Assembly: GCA_002104935.1 (NCBI GenBank)
Contig: MCGT01000019.1
Span: forward strand, 62,001 to 126,000
Direction: 5' to 3'
Length of the DNA: 64,000 nt
DNA from: Hesseltinella vesiculosa
Lineage: Eukaryota; Mucoromycota; Mucoromycetes; Mucorales; Cunninghamellaceae
Under the pieces are notes generated by a model. It was not told the origin of the DNA, did not search any database, and worked only from the letters and a program-made list of their open reading frames with translations. A program made the translations under genes and the position numbers. Positions 15,646 through 23,086 of this stretch are shown here, one piece after another. Position 1 is the first letter of the stretch. Each line of letters begins with the position of its first letter.

Positions 15646-17091
15646 CTAACAGCACTCTTCTTTTTCATCCAACGCAGCGACGGTGGCAAGATCGCGGATG
15701 ACCCAAGGATGAGGGGCAGATTCTTGTTGAGAAGTCGACAGGACCTGGCCGTTAACCATGGTCAGGGTGTTGACCAGCATCTTGTCAGCCACACGCTCTT
15801 GGTTAGTCGCATCTTTGAATGAGTAGGATCCTTGTGCTAACCTGAAGCAGGCAATGTCAGCTGGCCCACCCACCTTTAGCACCCCCAATTCCGGCTCATT
15901 GATGATTTGAGCAGGTCGATATGTCGCCTTCGCAATAACGGTGGCCAGAGGTACGCCCATCAGCAGATATTTGGAAAGGGTGGTTGGCAGGTCAAACACA
16001 TTCACTGATCGAGAAACTGAAAAAAAAAAAAAAAAAGAAATGACGATGAGCGTCCGGCGGCGTAACAGCGCGGTGCCTTACTTTGATGGAGGTCGCTGCT
16101 GAGGACGTCGGGGAGGGCGCTGAGTTTGGCCATAGCCTCAGCCGACGTAAAATTGAAACTACCAGACCCATGGCCAAGATCCAACACCACCCCTTTCTCT
16201 TTCAAAGCATGGTATACTGGCAAAAGCTGGCCTTGACTGTCGACTAGTCGATTCGACAAACCGGTGCAGCAATGGGTCAGAATGTCACCTTGTTTTAGAT
16301 AGGGTAGGAGATCGGACATACTGGGCGGGGCCAGGCCGACGTGCACCATGACTGGCAGACCTGTACGATCACCGAGCTGCCGCGCACGCTGCATTCCTCT
16401 TAGGCCAGTCTTGTTGGTTGCATCCCGGTCCATGCGAACCTTGATGCCCTTGATACGATCTCGGTTGGCCTCGATGGTGGCAACGGCCATGTCCACGTCT
16501 ACCATTTCGTCGTGTGTCAATTCATACGTGCGGCCGGTCAGTCCCAGCGCGCTGATGTGCAACAGTGAAAAGATCCGCACCTTGGACCTTTCCATCACAT
16601 ACCGCCGAAAGCCAGGGAAAGTGTACGCCCCCGCACTCCCTGCATCCACCCACGTCTAATGAAAAAAAAAAGTGTTTGGTCAATGATTGTTATCCCCTTT
16701 TTTTAGTTATCGCCTCTTCCTTCACCTACTGTGACACCTGTATGGGCACCAATGGGATCGGCCTCGATGCCCCAGTAGGTTGACCCCCAATAAACATGCG
16801 TGTGCATATCAATCAGCCCAGGGCAGACGTATTGGCCCGAGGCATCGATGATTTGACAAGTCGCAGGCGAAGGAACGTCGATTTGTGGCTCAATGGCAAC
16901 AACTTTGCCTCCTTTGACAGCAACATCTGCCTTGAACTCCACTTCACGTACGCTATCAATCACCGTTCCATGCTGAATCACAATATCATAGTCTGCTGCT
17001 GCTGCGATAGAGAACAGGTAAGCCCATTTTTTTTCGGTCACGGGAATTCCCACTCTAATGACATACTTGTGATTTCGGAGTGAGACACCAT
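15646..17091 (-). CDS. COG3964-type amidohydrolase (amidohydrolase/deacetylase family)
   Basis: Four exons: 17091-17067, 17001-16730, 16655-16082, 16016-15646, giving 413 aa. It is a metal-dependent TIM-barrel hydrolase. Metal ligands in order: H75 and H77 (DMHTH), K171 (GIKVRM, carboxylated lysine), H204 (VMVHVG), H227 (LTHCC), D287 (SSDLH). The pattern GVTTWVDAGSAGA is typical of the bacterial COG3964 group, where characterised members act on acetyl esters or N-acyl substrates. The exact substrate here is unknown. The start was placed on a short first exon (8 codons) that joins cleanly to a CAG-repeat acceptor (four consecutive CAG, so one to three alanines may vary). It ends 124 nt from the D-serine dehydratase stop. 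Confidence 0.87.
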
Positions 17092-17744
17092 CCTTGTATT
17101 ATTTTTTTTTATAGAGTGGACGAAAAGGAAAGAAAATCGAGATGGACCACTTGAAATATAGAAATGAAGGGGAAAAGGCGTCAAAAAAAGTCGCATCCGT
17201 TCCCACACGACACGGAGCTACAAAAAAATCTCCTCGTGACACAAAAAAATGCGAAATGGTGAGCCAATTAAAAACGCTGTAATATTGATAATACTAGAGT
17301 GAGGAAGCGCGATTAAACCTACGAGACGAGGTACAAAAATACTATGAAGATTAGCACTGAGAAAAGAAAAAAGTGAGAGTTGCTGCATGCACTTTTCCTT
17401 TTTAAGTTCGCATTCAATGGGTTATATTTATCATCAATACAAAAATGAATACTTTCCACTTCAAACCTGTTCAAGTTACCAAACTGGATATTCGTCGTTT
17501 GACTTTTCATCTCGTAATCTGGAAGTACCATGCTCTACTTATTCCTTGTATTCTTGAAGGTTGAAAAGGTAGTAAATAAACAAATCCTTCCTACAGACTT
17601 TGCAGGAGAGAGAGAGAGGGTGTCAGAGGCAAGAAAAACAACGAGCGGGGTTTATTGAAAAGGGTGCTGCGCGTTCAAAGAGTTCTTTTTCTTTCTTTAC
17701 TTTTTTTTTTTACAACCTTGCTTCAGCATTTATTTACATTTAAA
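17092..17744. other. Intergenic, between amidohydrolase and Fanzor
   Basis: AT-rich, with small A/T runs. No exon or repeat recognised. It holds the 5' flanks of both divergent genes. Confidence 0.5.
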
Positions 17745-20700
17745 ATGGGGCGTCATATAAGAAGAAGGCAATTACGAATAGATGCAAATAAGACTTGGCT
17801 GTATAACTTGAAAATGAGGAAATATTACATTCTCAAAGGTAAATCCTATTATTGACCTTGTTTGTTTATTTTTAAAACGCGATGCTTCATGATCTCATTC
17901 TCTTCCATTAGGTTTAGAGTGTACATTGTGCCATGGATTAGGGCACAAGCGAGCAGATTGTCCTTTCAACCGTTAGTATTGATCGTCCCTACATTGCCAG
18001 TTTCTAACATTTACTTTTAAAGGTGGCAAACGAAAGTCCAAAACCCAGCTCAAAAGGGCCAACAAGCTTCTACGTAAGGCTGGCTCCATGGCCCGCAAGG
18101 AAAATCAGAAGAACCCTGATGGGAAAAAAAGGGCCAAGAAATTCAAGTTGAAGGATCTCCAGTCTCTCTTGCTTGGCACCAATTTCAAAACCCGTGTTCG
18201 CAAGATATCTCTTTGTCATGCTCTTAACATGGCCCAAGACAATATCCAAGACCAACGCCAAGCAAAGATGGACGTCCAAGAAACCATCCTCCTATGGGTC
18301 GATCACATCCGCTATGTACTTCATGTCATGTCTGAGGGTTCTGTGGTCAACGATACTGTATTCTGTAAAGACTTTTTCTATGGGATCTGCCAACTGGTGA
18401 CTGACAAGCCTGTGACCTCCCCCAACTCGAACATACCTGATCCTACATCAATTTATCACCATTACCAGTCTCTCCTGGGTGACTACCGCTTCGAATTATA
18501 TTGGATCAAGGGTGCTAGTAACATGATTTCTGAAATGGCGGATGAGTTAGCCCAAATCAATCTCTTGGCTGTGACTGAACGTTTTGAAGAAAAGTGTATC
18601 AAGTATATTCGCTTTCGCTTGATCAACACCCTCAAGGATCAGCTGTCTGACGGCCAGGTCAGTAAGAAAGAGAGAGAAAATAAGAAGGCGCGAGTTGCTC
18701 ACTTTTTTTTGACATAGGAAATGCCAAAGTCCGGTTATATTATGAACGCATGCCAGAATATTTACGACACTGTCACCCGTCAAGAAAAAGTTGAACCACT
18801 GTCAGAAAATAGCCCCGATCTCTTGCGAACGATCGTCTCAACATTTATCTCAACCCTGAACTTTGGTCCAAGTCCAGTTACGCTGAAGGAACTTACTGCA
18901 AGTCCCGGAACATATTTGCAAGTACTTTACCGATTACTGCAAGAAATGGAACAAGGCAACGACCTGGAACCATATGAGAGGGGGCATGATGATGTACATG
19001 ATCAAATGGACACAATCACCATGAAGCTCTTACTATCGTCTAACATGGACTATCAGGTGCTGCCTCGTCGCTGTCGCCAAAGAGTATTCAAGGGCATAAT
19101 GCAATTGCTGGAGCACCCAGACAATCCAATTGACATCCCCTGGAGTCTACCGGAAGAATTTAAGACCTGGCTGTCAGATCTCGTCCTTGGCCTTCGTGTA
19201 AAGTTGGCAAACTCCAAGGCAAAACTGGCTGGCACTGACATATCAGCAGACCTTTGCTTCTCCTCCTCCACCATGAGGCAATCCAAGTCAACAGCCCTCT
19301 TTTCCCTTGTGCCGACTCTGTCCTTTCGTCGCCGGTTTATCACTTTGGATGCCTGCTCACTTCGGTCAATTCTCAAGCAAGCCGGTATAAACGTGACTGT
19401 GCCGCCGGGTGACCATTCCCATCCTTATATCCGCCTTACTCGCGATGCCACTCTCTTTTTCACCTACCTGGACTTTCAGAAGGCTCGCCTTCGAAAATGG
19501 TAACTGAGTAACTTTGTGATGGCAGGAATCGTGACTGATTTTTTTTTTAGTCGCATTTTTGCATTATCCAACGCTCACTGAAACTGACAGCGACAGCGAT
19601 GATGACGCTGGTGGTGCTGATCCCGATGCTGACAACGGTGATGCCGAAGATGATAGTGGCAGTGTTACTGATGGAAATGCTAATGACATCGGCAACCCTG
19701 CTGACGGTTCTGATGGTGCTCACAATACCCCATCGGAGGGCGAAAGCGACGATGGTGATCAAGATCAAGGCAGATTTACTGACGAGACAACACGCCTGGA
19801 CGATGGCAGCGATACTCAATTGACTGAAATCGATAGTAGCGATAGCGATGAAGAGGAAGATGATGATCCTGCCTCCTTGGTATTTTCCAATCGTGTTCGC
19901 ACTGATGGGCTTCAATTGGAATTTATCTATGGCAAGCGCGCACCCTAAATTGAACTTCCCGATCTCGAAATGGACGACTTGCATGATGAACCACAAGAAC
20001 GTATGCAGCTGTATGGAGTCGATCCAGGACATAGTGAGCTTTACACATCTGCTCAAGAAGACAAGCACCTCCCGGGAAATGATCGCACTGCCCCTGGCAC
20101 TGAGCACAGCAGCAACAGCACCAATGGTTGGCATGGTCGGTACATGCGATTCTCGAATAATGAATGGCTATCACTCTCTGGTCGACATGGGCGCTCATGC
20201 AATCGCAAACGTTGGCTCAAAGATTCTGGCATGGATGAGATTCTCACGCGCATACCACCAGCAAAAACTAATCATCCTGACCGCTTCATTCAGCGCACCA
20301 TCTACGTATTCCAACACCTTGATGATATCACCGAACATTTTGCTGATGACTATACCCTGCATCGGTTCCTGGACTATTGTGGGGACAAGAAGATGTGCGC
20401 AGAAGTCGTCAACCACTTCGTCCATGGTGGTAACAAATACAAACACCAGAAGGATGACTATGATAGGTATGCACTACACAAAAAAAGGTGTGATGCCTGG
20501 ACTAACTTTTTTTATAGCCGCAGACTTCCAGTGATTGCCTATGGTGGTGCATTGTTTGCGCAAACCCGTAGAGGGAAAAAGTCCACTCGCTCCGGAAAAG
20601 TGTACAAAGCACTCAAAATAGCGGAAAAGCAAGGGTTACTTCTTGTTACAAAAACAAATGAATACAACACAAGCAAGGTAAATCATGAGGAGAAGGAAAA

Positions 20701-21034
20701 ATGAAGCGCAAAATGACCTTTTTTTTCTATCTCATTTTTTCTACAGGTCTGTCCAATGTGTGATGAAAAAGACCTTGAACACAAGACCGTCGGTGACCCA
20801 TTCCTGCGAGGTGCAAGCATGTCTTTGTGGTCGGTTCTACAGTGCCAACACTGTAAAATCTACTGGGACAGGGATAAGCTTGCGGCTTGGAATATGTTGC
20901 GTCTTGGCAAGACTGCCCTCCAAAGATTGCCTCGCCCAGCGTTGTTCTGCCCACCACGATCCACCTCCGCCGACCAATCATCACCACACCAACAAAATTC
21001 AGCAGTTGCTTCTTCGTCTCGGGACCCTCACTAA
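17745..21034 (+). CDS. Fanzor (eukaryotic TnpB/IS605 OrfB homologue), interrupted by one in-frame stop
   Basis: Seven exons: 17745-17838, 17912-17971, 18023-18657, 18718-19499, 19591-20466, 20518-20677, 20747-21034; frame is kept throughout, 964 codons. Fanzors are RNA-guided RuvC nucleases carried by eukaryotic mobile elements. Features: N-terminal CCHC zinc knuckle (C35-x2-C38-x4-H43-x4-C48), a long helical region, an acidic linker (~524-620), the conserved VRTDG block, RuvC-I Asp (GVDPGH, D668), E864 in TNEYNTSK, a four-cysteine ribbon (C871, C874, C902, C905) and RuvC-III Asp (WDRDKLAAWN, D912). The usual RuvC-II position reads AYGGALF, without Glu; E864 fits the relocated Glu described for Fanzors. 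Codon 643 (19946-19948) is TAA, in frame, between the linker and RuvC-I. The exon 4/5 acceptor and the 51-nt intron at 20467-20517 are less certain. Probably nuclear; probably inactive unless the stop is bypassed. Confidence 0.88.
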
Positions 21035-23086
21035 CGAACATCTTTACCTCGCTGGCCAATAAACCAGCTTATTTACGTAAGCCTGAGGCAGAATGTGAAG
21101 AGGAAATGCTGATTTTTTTTTTGGCAGGTTTGTCATGAAAATGAATAAAGTAAGTTTAGATGAAAATAATTCAAGCGCCTGATTGGCTACTAACATTGGA
21201 TTTTTTTCTGCAGTGTCGTGACACAAAAACCTTGTTTGACGGCAGGTCTGTCGGAATATCCATACCCTACCAGCCAATAAAGAATTGACCTGTTTTCTTT
21301 CCGCCTACACGCTCGCCGATGCCTTTCTTGTGAGTCGGCTCATCCGCAAGGGATAAAGGATTTTTCCAGAGCAATTTTCGTCGAGTGCAAGGCCAGATCA
21401 CGCCAGATTTTGCATACGAGTACAAAATGAGGAGAAATGGCCATGGTCGATTATAACGCTCTCAGGCAGTGGAAGAAACAGCTAAAAGGCTGAAAAATGC
21501 TGTGCACCGTCCAGGCATCGCAGGCACTGGGCGGACGTTGAATTGGCGGTCCATTGCATTCCATCATTTTGAGAAAATAAAGCGATCGCTGCACAGCATT
21601 TTTGTGATATTGGATCGATATGAAAATTCGCACGCTTGCGCGAATTCATGATTGATGATGGAGCTGAAAAATTCAGTTGGAACGGTGGAGACTGCCCAGC
21701 TAACTTTGACCAATTTCAATTTGTTAGCTCCAATCCCTCAGCTAAAAACTGACATTTTCGCCTAAGGAACCCCTGTACTTTTTACATAAAGTCATTGATG
21801 TTGAAAAAATCGCGCTGGCTGGTCAATGCTGCAGCCAGAGGTCAACTCACGACCCTGGTTTATTTTTCTTCGTCATCTAACCTTTTTATTACTTCTTCTT
21901 CTTCGCCGTAGTTGATTTGTTAGCGCGACTCGACCACCCATTCAATAAATGAAAAAGTGCTCTGCGCTCCCCACAACTTTCCACAGGCATAATGCTTTTT
22001 TGCTGCATTCAGATCCACAGACAATGCATTTTTTTTTTTTGCTCATTCCTTGAAAACTGCCAAACAGCAAAAGTGACTGCATCATGGCAACGCTCAGGCA
22101 GCCTAATTGAAGTGAGGCTTTTCACCTCCAGTCCCTTTGCTTTTGTTGCACGGAACAAAAAACACCTGCCTGTGGCTATCAGCTTTAAAAAAAGCAAAAC
22201 AACGGCAAATCTTTGTCTGGTGAGGACGCATTTTTGGGTACGCATGTCATTTGAAAATGAGCGAGTAGGAGAGTCGATGTCACGTAGAAAGTGTTTTGTT
22301 TCAAACTGCCCTGGATCTTGAAAGGAGGTAGGAAATATTTTTTTTTTTTTTTGCAGGAACAAAAAGAGCTGCAGGTTGAGAAACGTGTTGCGGCTCTGCT
22401 ATTTTTCCTGCAGGTTTGATTGAAAGCATGTTCCTCTTTTTGCCACTTCCATATACCCAATCAAAGGAACTTTTCCTGCATTGTTGAACCGGATGGCCTT
22501 GCTCACGGGCTTTTTTTTTCTTCGCTTTTTTTTTTTGTTTACAAATTGAAAAAGATCACCGGTTTTTTTTCTTCTCCGTATGCAGCTGATGAACCGAAAT
22601 CTTGTTTACTAGCCTTTTCCCTTGAACCTGCGATCAATACCATTTATTTATTTATTTTTTTAAAAAAAGGTTAAACATCGATCACCTCTTATCACCCTGG
22701 CTACTTGCGCCCCTGGAGCGCCTTTGGGTCAATTAAGGAGGAGCATTTTTGGAGATGGTGCCACACGCGTCATTTCTCGATTTCTTGGCTTCATTAGTGA
22801 TGAAGAATGGGTGAGGGGGGGAGAGGGATAAAACAGCAGCCATCTCACCTTTGCTGGTCAAGGGGAATCAAAGGAAAAAAGGGAGTTGCACCTCGTTTTG
22901 TTTCTTTTTTTGACGTTTGACGTCTGGCATTGAAAATGGTTGCTTCAAAAAAAAAAGATTCATCGTAGGGCTGCATCACTCCTTTTTTTCTCTCTTTCTT
23001 TCTTCTGATTCCACGCAAAAAAAAAAAAAGCACCTCGTTTTTTTTTCTTGCTTCTTTTTCTTTTGCATCACTCTGAGACCTTCATA
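21035..23086. other. Long intergenic region after Fanzor
   Basis: Left part (21035-21300) is the Fanzor 3' flank, with two further poly-T/CAG acceptor-like sites and a small GTGTC-GT-GACAC hairpin at 21213-21224. 21480-21790 is an R1 repeat. The rest is AT-rich with many T/A runs and no recognisable gene. Confidence 0.5.
21480..21790 (-). repeat. Dispersed repeat family R1, copy c (reverse)
   Basis: Matches the reverse complement of 2031-2440 and 45385-45820: GCGGACGTTGAATTGGC, then GCGCGAATTCATGATTGATG, then GCCCAGCTAAC, then GACATTTTCGCC. A further R1 end (GAGTACAAAATGAGGAGAAATG) sits at about 21418, out of order, so the copy is rearranged. Confidence 0.55.

Follow-up and report, generated by a model that had tools for sequence, protein, structure and literature searches.

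A predicted Fanzor1-type gene with an N-terminal zinc-knuckle-like module in a decayed mobile element of Hesseltinella vesiculosa

The locus and the closest described Fanzors

Fanzors are eukaryotic relatives of the CRISPR enzymes and are candidate genome editors. Here we describe a Fanzor gene in a stretch of 64,000 nucleotides (nt) from the fungus Hesseltinella vesiculosa, referred to as the window (C11:62001-126000; contig MCGT01000019.1; genome of 27.05 Mb in 85 contigs). To judge from its sequence, the gene very probably belongs to a decayed fungal mobile element of about 4 kilobases (kb) that was recently active, and in which it is the only recognised gene. The predicted product of intact copies is a Fanzor1 (Fz1)-type RNA-guided DNA endonuclease of ~990 residues with an N-terminal zinc-knuckle-like module, a putative extra contact to guide RNA or DNA.

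Among the closest described systems, SpuFz1 of Spizellomyces punctatus (PDB 8gkh; PMC10432273) resembles the window's family in its RuvC-II and RuvC-III segments with matching Glu and Asp residues, in its C4 zinc ribbon, and in being the gene of a mobile element. SpuFz1 does not, however, align across the N-terminal knuckle region of the window's family, which also has a long acidic linker. GtFz1 of Guillardia theta (PDB 9cer) aligns at the DPG of RuvC-I and in the ribbon region, whereas there is no alignment over the knuckle, and in the printed alignment its last catalytic position reads R-N, as against R-D in the window's family. PpFz1 of Parasitella parasitica (PMC11423790), which was outside the 19 structure chains compared here, is likewise a fungal Fanzor1 with an added domain, the FRI insertion; that insertion lies inside RuvC and binds cyclophilin, whereas the module of the window's family is N-terminal and knuckle-like. 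Most Fz1 proteins have 600-700 residues (PMC11423790), compared to ~990 here. The unclassified Mucor circinelloides elements MCi-2 and MCi-5 (PMC3627910) are, like the window's element, fungal Fanzor1 elements that occur in multiple copies and lack recognisable terminal inverted repeats, but they have target-site duplications of 6 to 12 base pairs (bp), whereas none is consistent in the window's element. The zinc-knuckle proteins AIR2, retroviral nucleocapsid and LIN28 share the CX2CX4HX4C spacing and sequence flavour of the knuckle and are otherwise unrelated; the window's family carries a single knuckle, under the PF00098 cut-off, on a nuclease.

The N-terminal halves of Fanzors are highly variable (PMC3627910). 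An earlier sequence-only reading of the window knew of no described Fanzor with this architecture, and we likewise found no description of a Fanzor with a CCHC motif or knuckle in the literature searched, with supplements and most subscription papers outside the search. The family thus appears to be a Fanzor1 variant with an N-terminal zinc-knuckle-like module and no earlier description in that literature. As a natural knuckle family with intact copies, and with a sister family carrying a second zinc-type motif, it would allow a direct test of N-terminal additions in guide loading or DNA unwinding.

Gene model, Fanzor membership and copies of the element

The seven-exon structure and C-terminal Fanzor hallmarks proposed by the sequence-only reading were both located in the window. 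Seven exons with GT-AG borders lie on the plus strand, beginning at an ATG at 17745; on the contig the gene spans C11:79745-83034. Exon 1 (17745-17838) supplies the start codon, and its ATG and donor are retained in all 17 copies of the element. Exon 2 (17912-17971), which bears the knuckle, has GT-AG borders in 17/17 copies, and the splice sites around exons 1-3 are retained in every copy. Exon 3 (18023-18657) encodes part of the N-terminal region and is followed by exon 4 (18718-19499), by exon 5 with the acidic linker and RuvC-I (19551-20466), by exon 6 with NEYNTSK (20518-20677), and by exon 7 with the C4 zinc ribbon, RuvC-III and the stop codon (20747-21034). The RuvC D-E-D triad and the ribbon are present by sequence. 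RuvC-I reads GVDPGH (20015-20032, Asp codon 20021-20023), and its DPG aligns with GtFz1; NEYNTSK (20657-20677) holds the relocated catalytic Glu (codon 20660-20662); the ribbon Cys pairs are CPMC, from 20750, and CQHC (20843-20854); and DRDK (20867-20878) holds the RuvC-III catalytic Asp (codon 20873-20875), all on the plus strand. In the SpuFz1 alignment, numbered by hand, a constant offset of 394 matches the Glu of the family to E541 and the last Asp to D606, both of which PMC10432273 names as metal-coordinating.

Profile searches bore out the earlier identification of a TnpB/Fanzor homologue. The C-terminal piece of the window copy matched PF07282, the C4 zinc ribbon, with 34.8 bits against a cut-off of 26.3, and four of four Fanzor families compared from the genome matched it as well. 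A profile of those four families (A2; exon joins chosen by eye in two) matched SpuFz1 (1.2e-8) and GtFz1 (1.4e-5) as the best two of 19 chains with solved structures, before TnpB and Cas12; no Fz2 chain was identified among the 19, and the Fanzor1 placement follows match ranking, without a tree. The superfamily motif D-X(125,275)-[TS]-[TS]-X-X-[C4]-X(5,50)-RD (PMC3627910) is present in full in the intact copy L038 where, counted by hand, D693 is followed by 198 residues, T892 and S893, the cysteines C896/C899/C927/C930, five residues, and R936 and D937. The window copy has the parts of this motif, but they do not share an open frame with the N-terminus. Two Fanzor traits given in PMC10711439 were also found: the DPG, within GVDPGH, and the alternative position of the Glu, which here precedes the first ribbon Cys by six residues. 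By these sequence comparisons, the gene product is a member of the Fanzor/TnpB superfamily, nearer to Fz1 than to TnpB. PDB searches yielded no match for the intact protein alone or for an N-terminal profile (A3), and one chance-level match for the N-terminal piece of the L050 family. An L007 piece had 90 matches, headed by designed ankyrin proteins (best 9e-4) that we consider spurious; SpuFz1 was among the matches at 0.17. Scans for Rfam families and tRNAs in the window yielded nothing.

The sequence-only reading took the locus to encode the whole protein, which two breaks speak against. The exon 4 to exon 5 join (19499/19551) is out of phase, with the first stop at codon 534; compared to the 15 copies that have this part, the window copy is 5 nt shorter just inside exon 5. 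In addition, an in-frame TAA (19946-19948) lies ahead of RuvC-I, where the 15 other copies covering the place have CAA and the 17th copy, L045, is deleted. Exon 3 has also lost 36 nt that are present in 16/16 other copies, with an in-frame deletion junction at 18312-18313 on the plus strand. The knuckle and the nuclease are not within one open frame, and the window copy is a pseudogene, a decayed copy of the element. It could yield an N-terminal fragment of no more than 533 residues, which would include the knuckle but lack the nuclease.

Besides these frame breaks, the earlier reading had passed over the multi-copy element to which the gene belongs. Homology among the 17 copies extends from about 17247 to 21217 on the plus strand, ~4 kb, in which no gene besides the Fanzor was recognised. 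A DNA search of the fungus's own genome returned 21 matches: 15 near-full-length copies including that of the window, two copies that are each split into two pieces, and one decayed fragment that accounts for two matches. The other 14 near-full-length copies are 94-96% identical to the window copy, and the copies in pieces 95-98%. Because the copies are nearly identical, the element appears, to judge by them, to have been recently active. Frames are intact in six of the 17 (L030, L031, L032, L033, L037 and L038), with no internal stop, GT-AG borders at all introns and 989-991 residues; of these, L030 lies at C26:226491-229824 and L038 at C1:73295-76621. The remaining 11 are broken or incomplete, which indicates that decay is common in this element.

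The N-terminal module and the other Fanzors of the genome

The knuckle, CTLCHGLGHKRADC (17920-17961, plus strand), has the CX2CX4HX4C spacing of a retroviral-type CCHC knuckle, and the codons of its four ligands, C35, C38, H43 and C48, are the same in 17/17 copies. Shuffling the residues of an intact sister protein produced this spacing in 7 of 20,000 trials. Among residues 1-56 of the 17 copies, decayed ones included, seven codons vary only silently and six with an amino-acid change, and no ligand is among them. The ratio of nonsynonymous to synonymous substitution (dN/dS) in the six intact copies was lowest in residues 1-56 (0.06). It was 0.30 and 0.33 in the two stretches that follow, 0.93 in the acidic linker and 0.15 in the C-terminal part, against 0.29 for the whole protein, as calculated from 15 non-independent pairs with few events in residues 1-56.

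A second family, L046, is 33% identical in alignment and has two further places, on C12 and C41. In its gene model, made by hand, an exon between introns of phases 1 and 1, as in the window's family, encodes GRVPCPRCGGSNHNNARSRLCPFNR (CX2CX4HX7C); at this place the window's family reads GL[E/K]CTLCHGLGHKRADCPFNR, with E in the window copy only. Since the knuckle is kept in 17/17 copies, lies in the same exon with the same phases in a family only 33% identical, and has a low dN/dS, the earlier claim that it opens the protein stands, and by these comparisons the knuckle-like module is a genuine part of the gene and is constrained among the copies. Searched against the PDB, the knuckle peptide gave 18 matches at E <= 10, with AIR2 (0.0026) first and a nucleocapsid protein (0.0054) next; RNA-binding LIN28 and TUT7 were included. 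Pfam matches to zf-C2H2_10 (4.2e-4), zf-CCHC_4 (0.049) and zf-CCHC (0.059) were all under the curated cut-offs.

Two other features stressed by the sequence-only reading fared less well. The long N-terminal region is not peculiar to this family, since three further Fanzor families in the genome align with it. The acidic linker is indeed present in exon 5, but it is almost neutral (dN/dS 0.93) and is thus probably a spacer. The genome is rich in Fanzors, with 46 PF07282 matches, 42 of them over the cut-off and none in the 17 copies, as a lower bound; because these fall partly in groups of near-identical score, they suggest several recently active Fanzor families. When N-terminal DNA was read at four other Fanzor loci, L047, L048 and L050 showed CPTC...THSRS.S..CP, and L049 only the half THSRASSHRCP because the stretch read began inside the motif. 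The L046 family has the knuckle plus a degenerate CQRC...CLHH...CHAH where the other loci have this second motif, and the window's family has a lysine-rich stretch in its place. We read this arrangement as a pair of zinc-type modules, the exon-2 knuckle being the one that the window's family would have kept; with a CxxC...H...C near the N-terminus of other Fanzors in the genome, the knuckle would be one form of a wider theme. A fungal Fanzor1 lineage might even have interchangeable N-terminal zinc modules that hold or load guide RNA (the exon-borne CCHC knuckle, the longer CxxC...H...C, and both in the L046 family), a speculation that we consider rather unlikely. If true, zinc-knuckle RNA recognition would be built into an RNA-guided nuclease.

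A separate observation concerns L003, L005, L007 and L008, which have long Ala/Ser/Pro-rich insertions (AIAIA runs) after GGxKY inside the RuvC region, perhaps where PpFz1 has its FRI insertion.

Predicted role of the knuckle and the search for an omega RNA

The enzyme would be loaded with an omega RNA from the 3' part of the element and, as characterised Fanzor1 enzymes do, would cut DNA matching the guide, and this cleavage would aid the persistence or spread of the element. The knuckle and the lysine/arginine-rich stretch behind it would most likely provide an extra contact to single-stranded nucleic acid, with the omega RNA as the first candidate and a DNA strand as the second.

Several results weigh against this interpretation. 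The Fanzor search pattern of PMC10711439, DPG x(120,160) E with CxxC x(12,18) CxxC, does not describe the family, which has spacings of 193 and 27; the pattern is a means of searching and not a definition of Fanzor1, and by alignment the ribbon spacing of SpuFz1 is also longer. The NCBIfam model guided_TnpB matched three of four Fanzor families of the genome but not the window's, which had only a sub-threshold match to IS607_TnpB (0.089). No relatives were found outside the genome: the intact protein returned 5,809 candidates, none at E <= 1e-3; the A2 alignment returned 6,767, again with none; 43 stretches of viral contigs and 84 of prokaryotic genome contigs included no confirmed relative; and plasmid DNA gave no match. 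Conservation of the knuckle therefore rests on one genome. Against PF00098 (zf-CCHC), the knuckle scored 13.9 bits, with a cut-off of 20.8, and the 43 PF00098 places located in the genome do not include it; because of this score, it is called knuckle-like here and is not filed under PF00098. Finally, the 3' non-coding region from the stop to the right end (21035-21217, plus strand, 183 nt), the expected place of an omega RNA, has no unusual fold (z -0.1 to 1.0), shows no more conservation than the exons do (mean pairwise difference 0.030), and occurs only within the family's copies (16 places), with no stand-alone right-end copies. Without an unusual fold, special conservation or stand-alone copies, this region yielded no identified omega RNA.

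The breaks in the window copy could be assembly errors or be skirted by alternative splicing, and the copy be functional. Intact copies elsewhere in the genome make errors conceivable, and the 36-nt deletion preserves the frame, but two separate lesions break the frame, splicing to the upstream AG that is left (in GGCAG) would give an intron of just ~26 nt with the TAA still in the way, and 11/17 copies have decayed, each in its own way; a functional window copy is thus very improbable. It is just as improbable that exons 1 and 2 lie outside the gene and that unrelated pieces were joined. These exons are short (94 and 60 nt) and their joining is predicted from sequence, yet the ATG, the GT-AG sites and the frame are retained in the copies, six copies are open through all seven exons, and the intron phases are the same in L046.

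Granted that the module belongs to the gene, it could still be a neutral remnant of a captured exon that plays no part in the nuclease, the donor being a Gag-like gene or a host gene for RNA binding. In favour of this, the motif is small and under the Pfam cut-off, other Fanzors of the genome do without the knuckle exon, and at least 43 PF00098 places are possible donors. This explanation appears quite unlikely given that the ligand codons are retained in 17/17 copies, that dN/dS is 0.06 for residues 1-56 against 0.93 for the linker, and that a family with only 33% identity has a knuckle-like exon at the same place. In some proteins, zinc knuckles bind DNA, and in sequence the module is distant from the C-terminal nuclease and precedes the part that can be aligned with other Fanzors. 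It may therefore contact DNA and not the guide RNA, whether the target, the non-target strand or the ends of the element, for example to aid unwinding or to keep the enzyme tethered to its element. The several RNA-binding proteins (LIN28, TUT7) among the structure matches are weak evidence for RNA instead, and we regard contact with DNA as a possible but somewhat unlikely role. Contact with the omega RNA remains the preferred reading.

A very stable hairpin (-41.7 kcal/mol) was found on the transcript strand of exon 7 (20800-20893, plus strand). Its z of -6.3 against dinucleotide shuffles was the lowest of the 78 windows of 100 nt in the element, none of 300 synonymous recodings was equally stable, and it folds with -37.4 to -45.5 kcal/mol across 17/17 copies. 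The changes observed in its stem affect one side only, and each occurs in just one copy. The corresponding part of the L046 family has no fold that stands out to a comparable degree, and we do not claim the hairpin as an omega RNA; in the L007 family, a window of z -4.5 lies in the ribbon region. Just downstream (20894-21031), only one of 30 fourfold-degenerate sites varies among the copies, compared to 42/287 across exons 3 and 4 and the portion of exon 5 that encodes RuvC, a weak hint of a possible overlapping constraint at the end of the coding sequence.

The right end of the element is sharp at 21217, and the left end is less exact, with ~14 further nt common to other copies. No canonical inverted repeats were seen at the ends, and a faint resemblance of one end to the other, assessed by eye, is given no weight here. 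In the 12 copies with both ends, no consistent target-site duplication was found (mean longest shared word 6.25 nt, versus 4.84 nt in crossed pairs, crossed maximum 11). Classing the element by its ends was rejected on both counts. The window copy has a 13-nt direct repeat, TCGTGACACAAAA, at 17234-17246 and 21216-21228, the latter overlapping the right end by 2 nt; this repeat is peculiar to the window copy, and the next best among the 11 other two-ended copies is 10 nt, a T run. By eye, in 8/12 copies (one via a 1-base shift) the base that follows the right end is identical to the one after TC in the left end, and G stands on the right in three copies, the same three that have G on the left (L029-L045 ends). 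This match might mark a very short target duplication, but some matches are expected since 10/15 right flanks begin with A.

Four places share only the left 77-267 bp of the element (C34:291544, C29:176466, C39:166818 and C45:785647) and could be other elements with the same terminus, perhaps including an autonomous partner. The decayed fragment, L028 (C23:370945-371238), is a relative of the element that lies ~1 kb beyond another Fanzor ribbon match (C23:369853-370023). In the window, the element adjoins the 5' end of an amidohydrolase-like gene (16706-17098, minus strand; PF07969, 1.1e-7).

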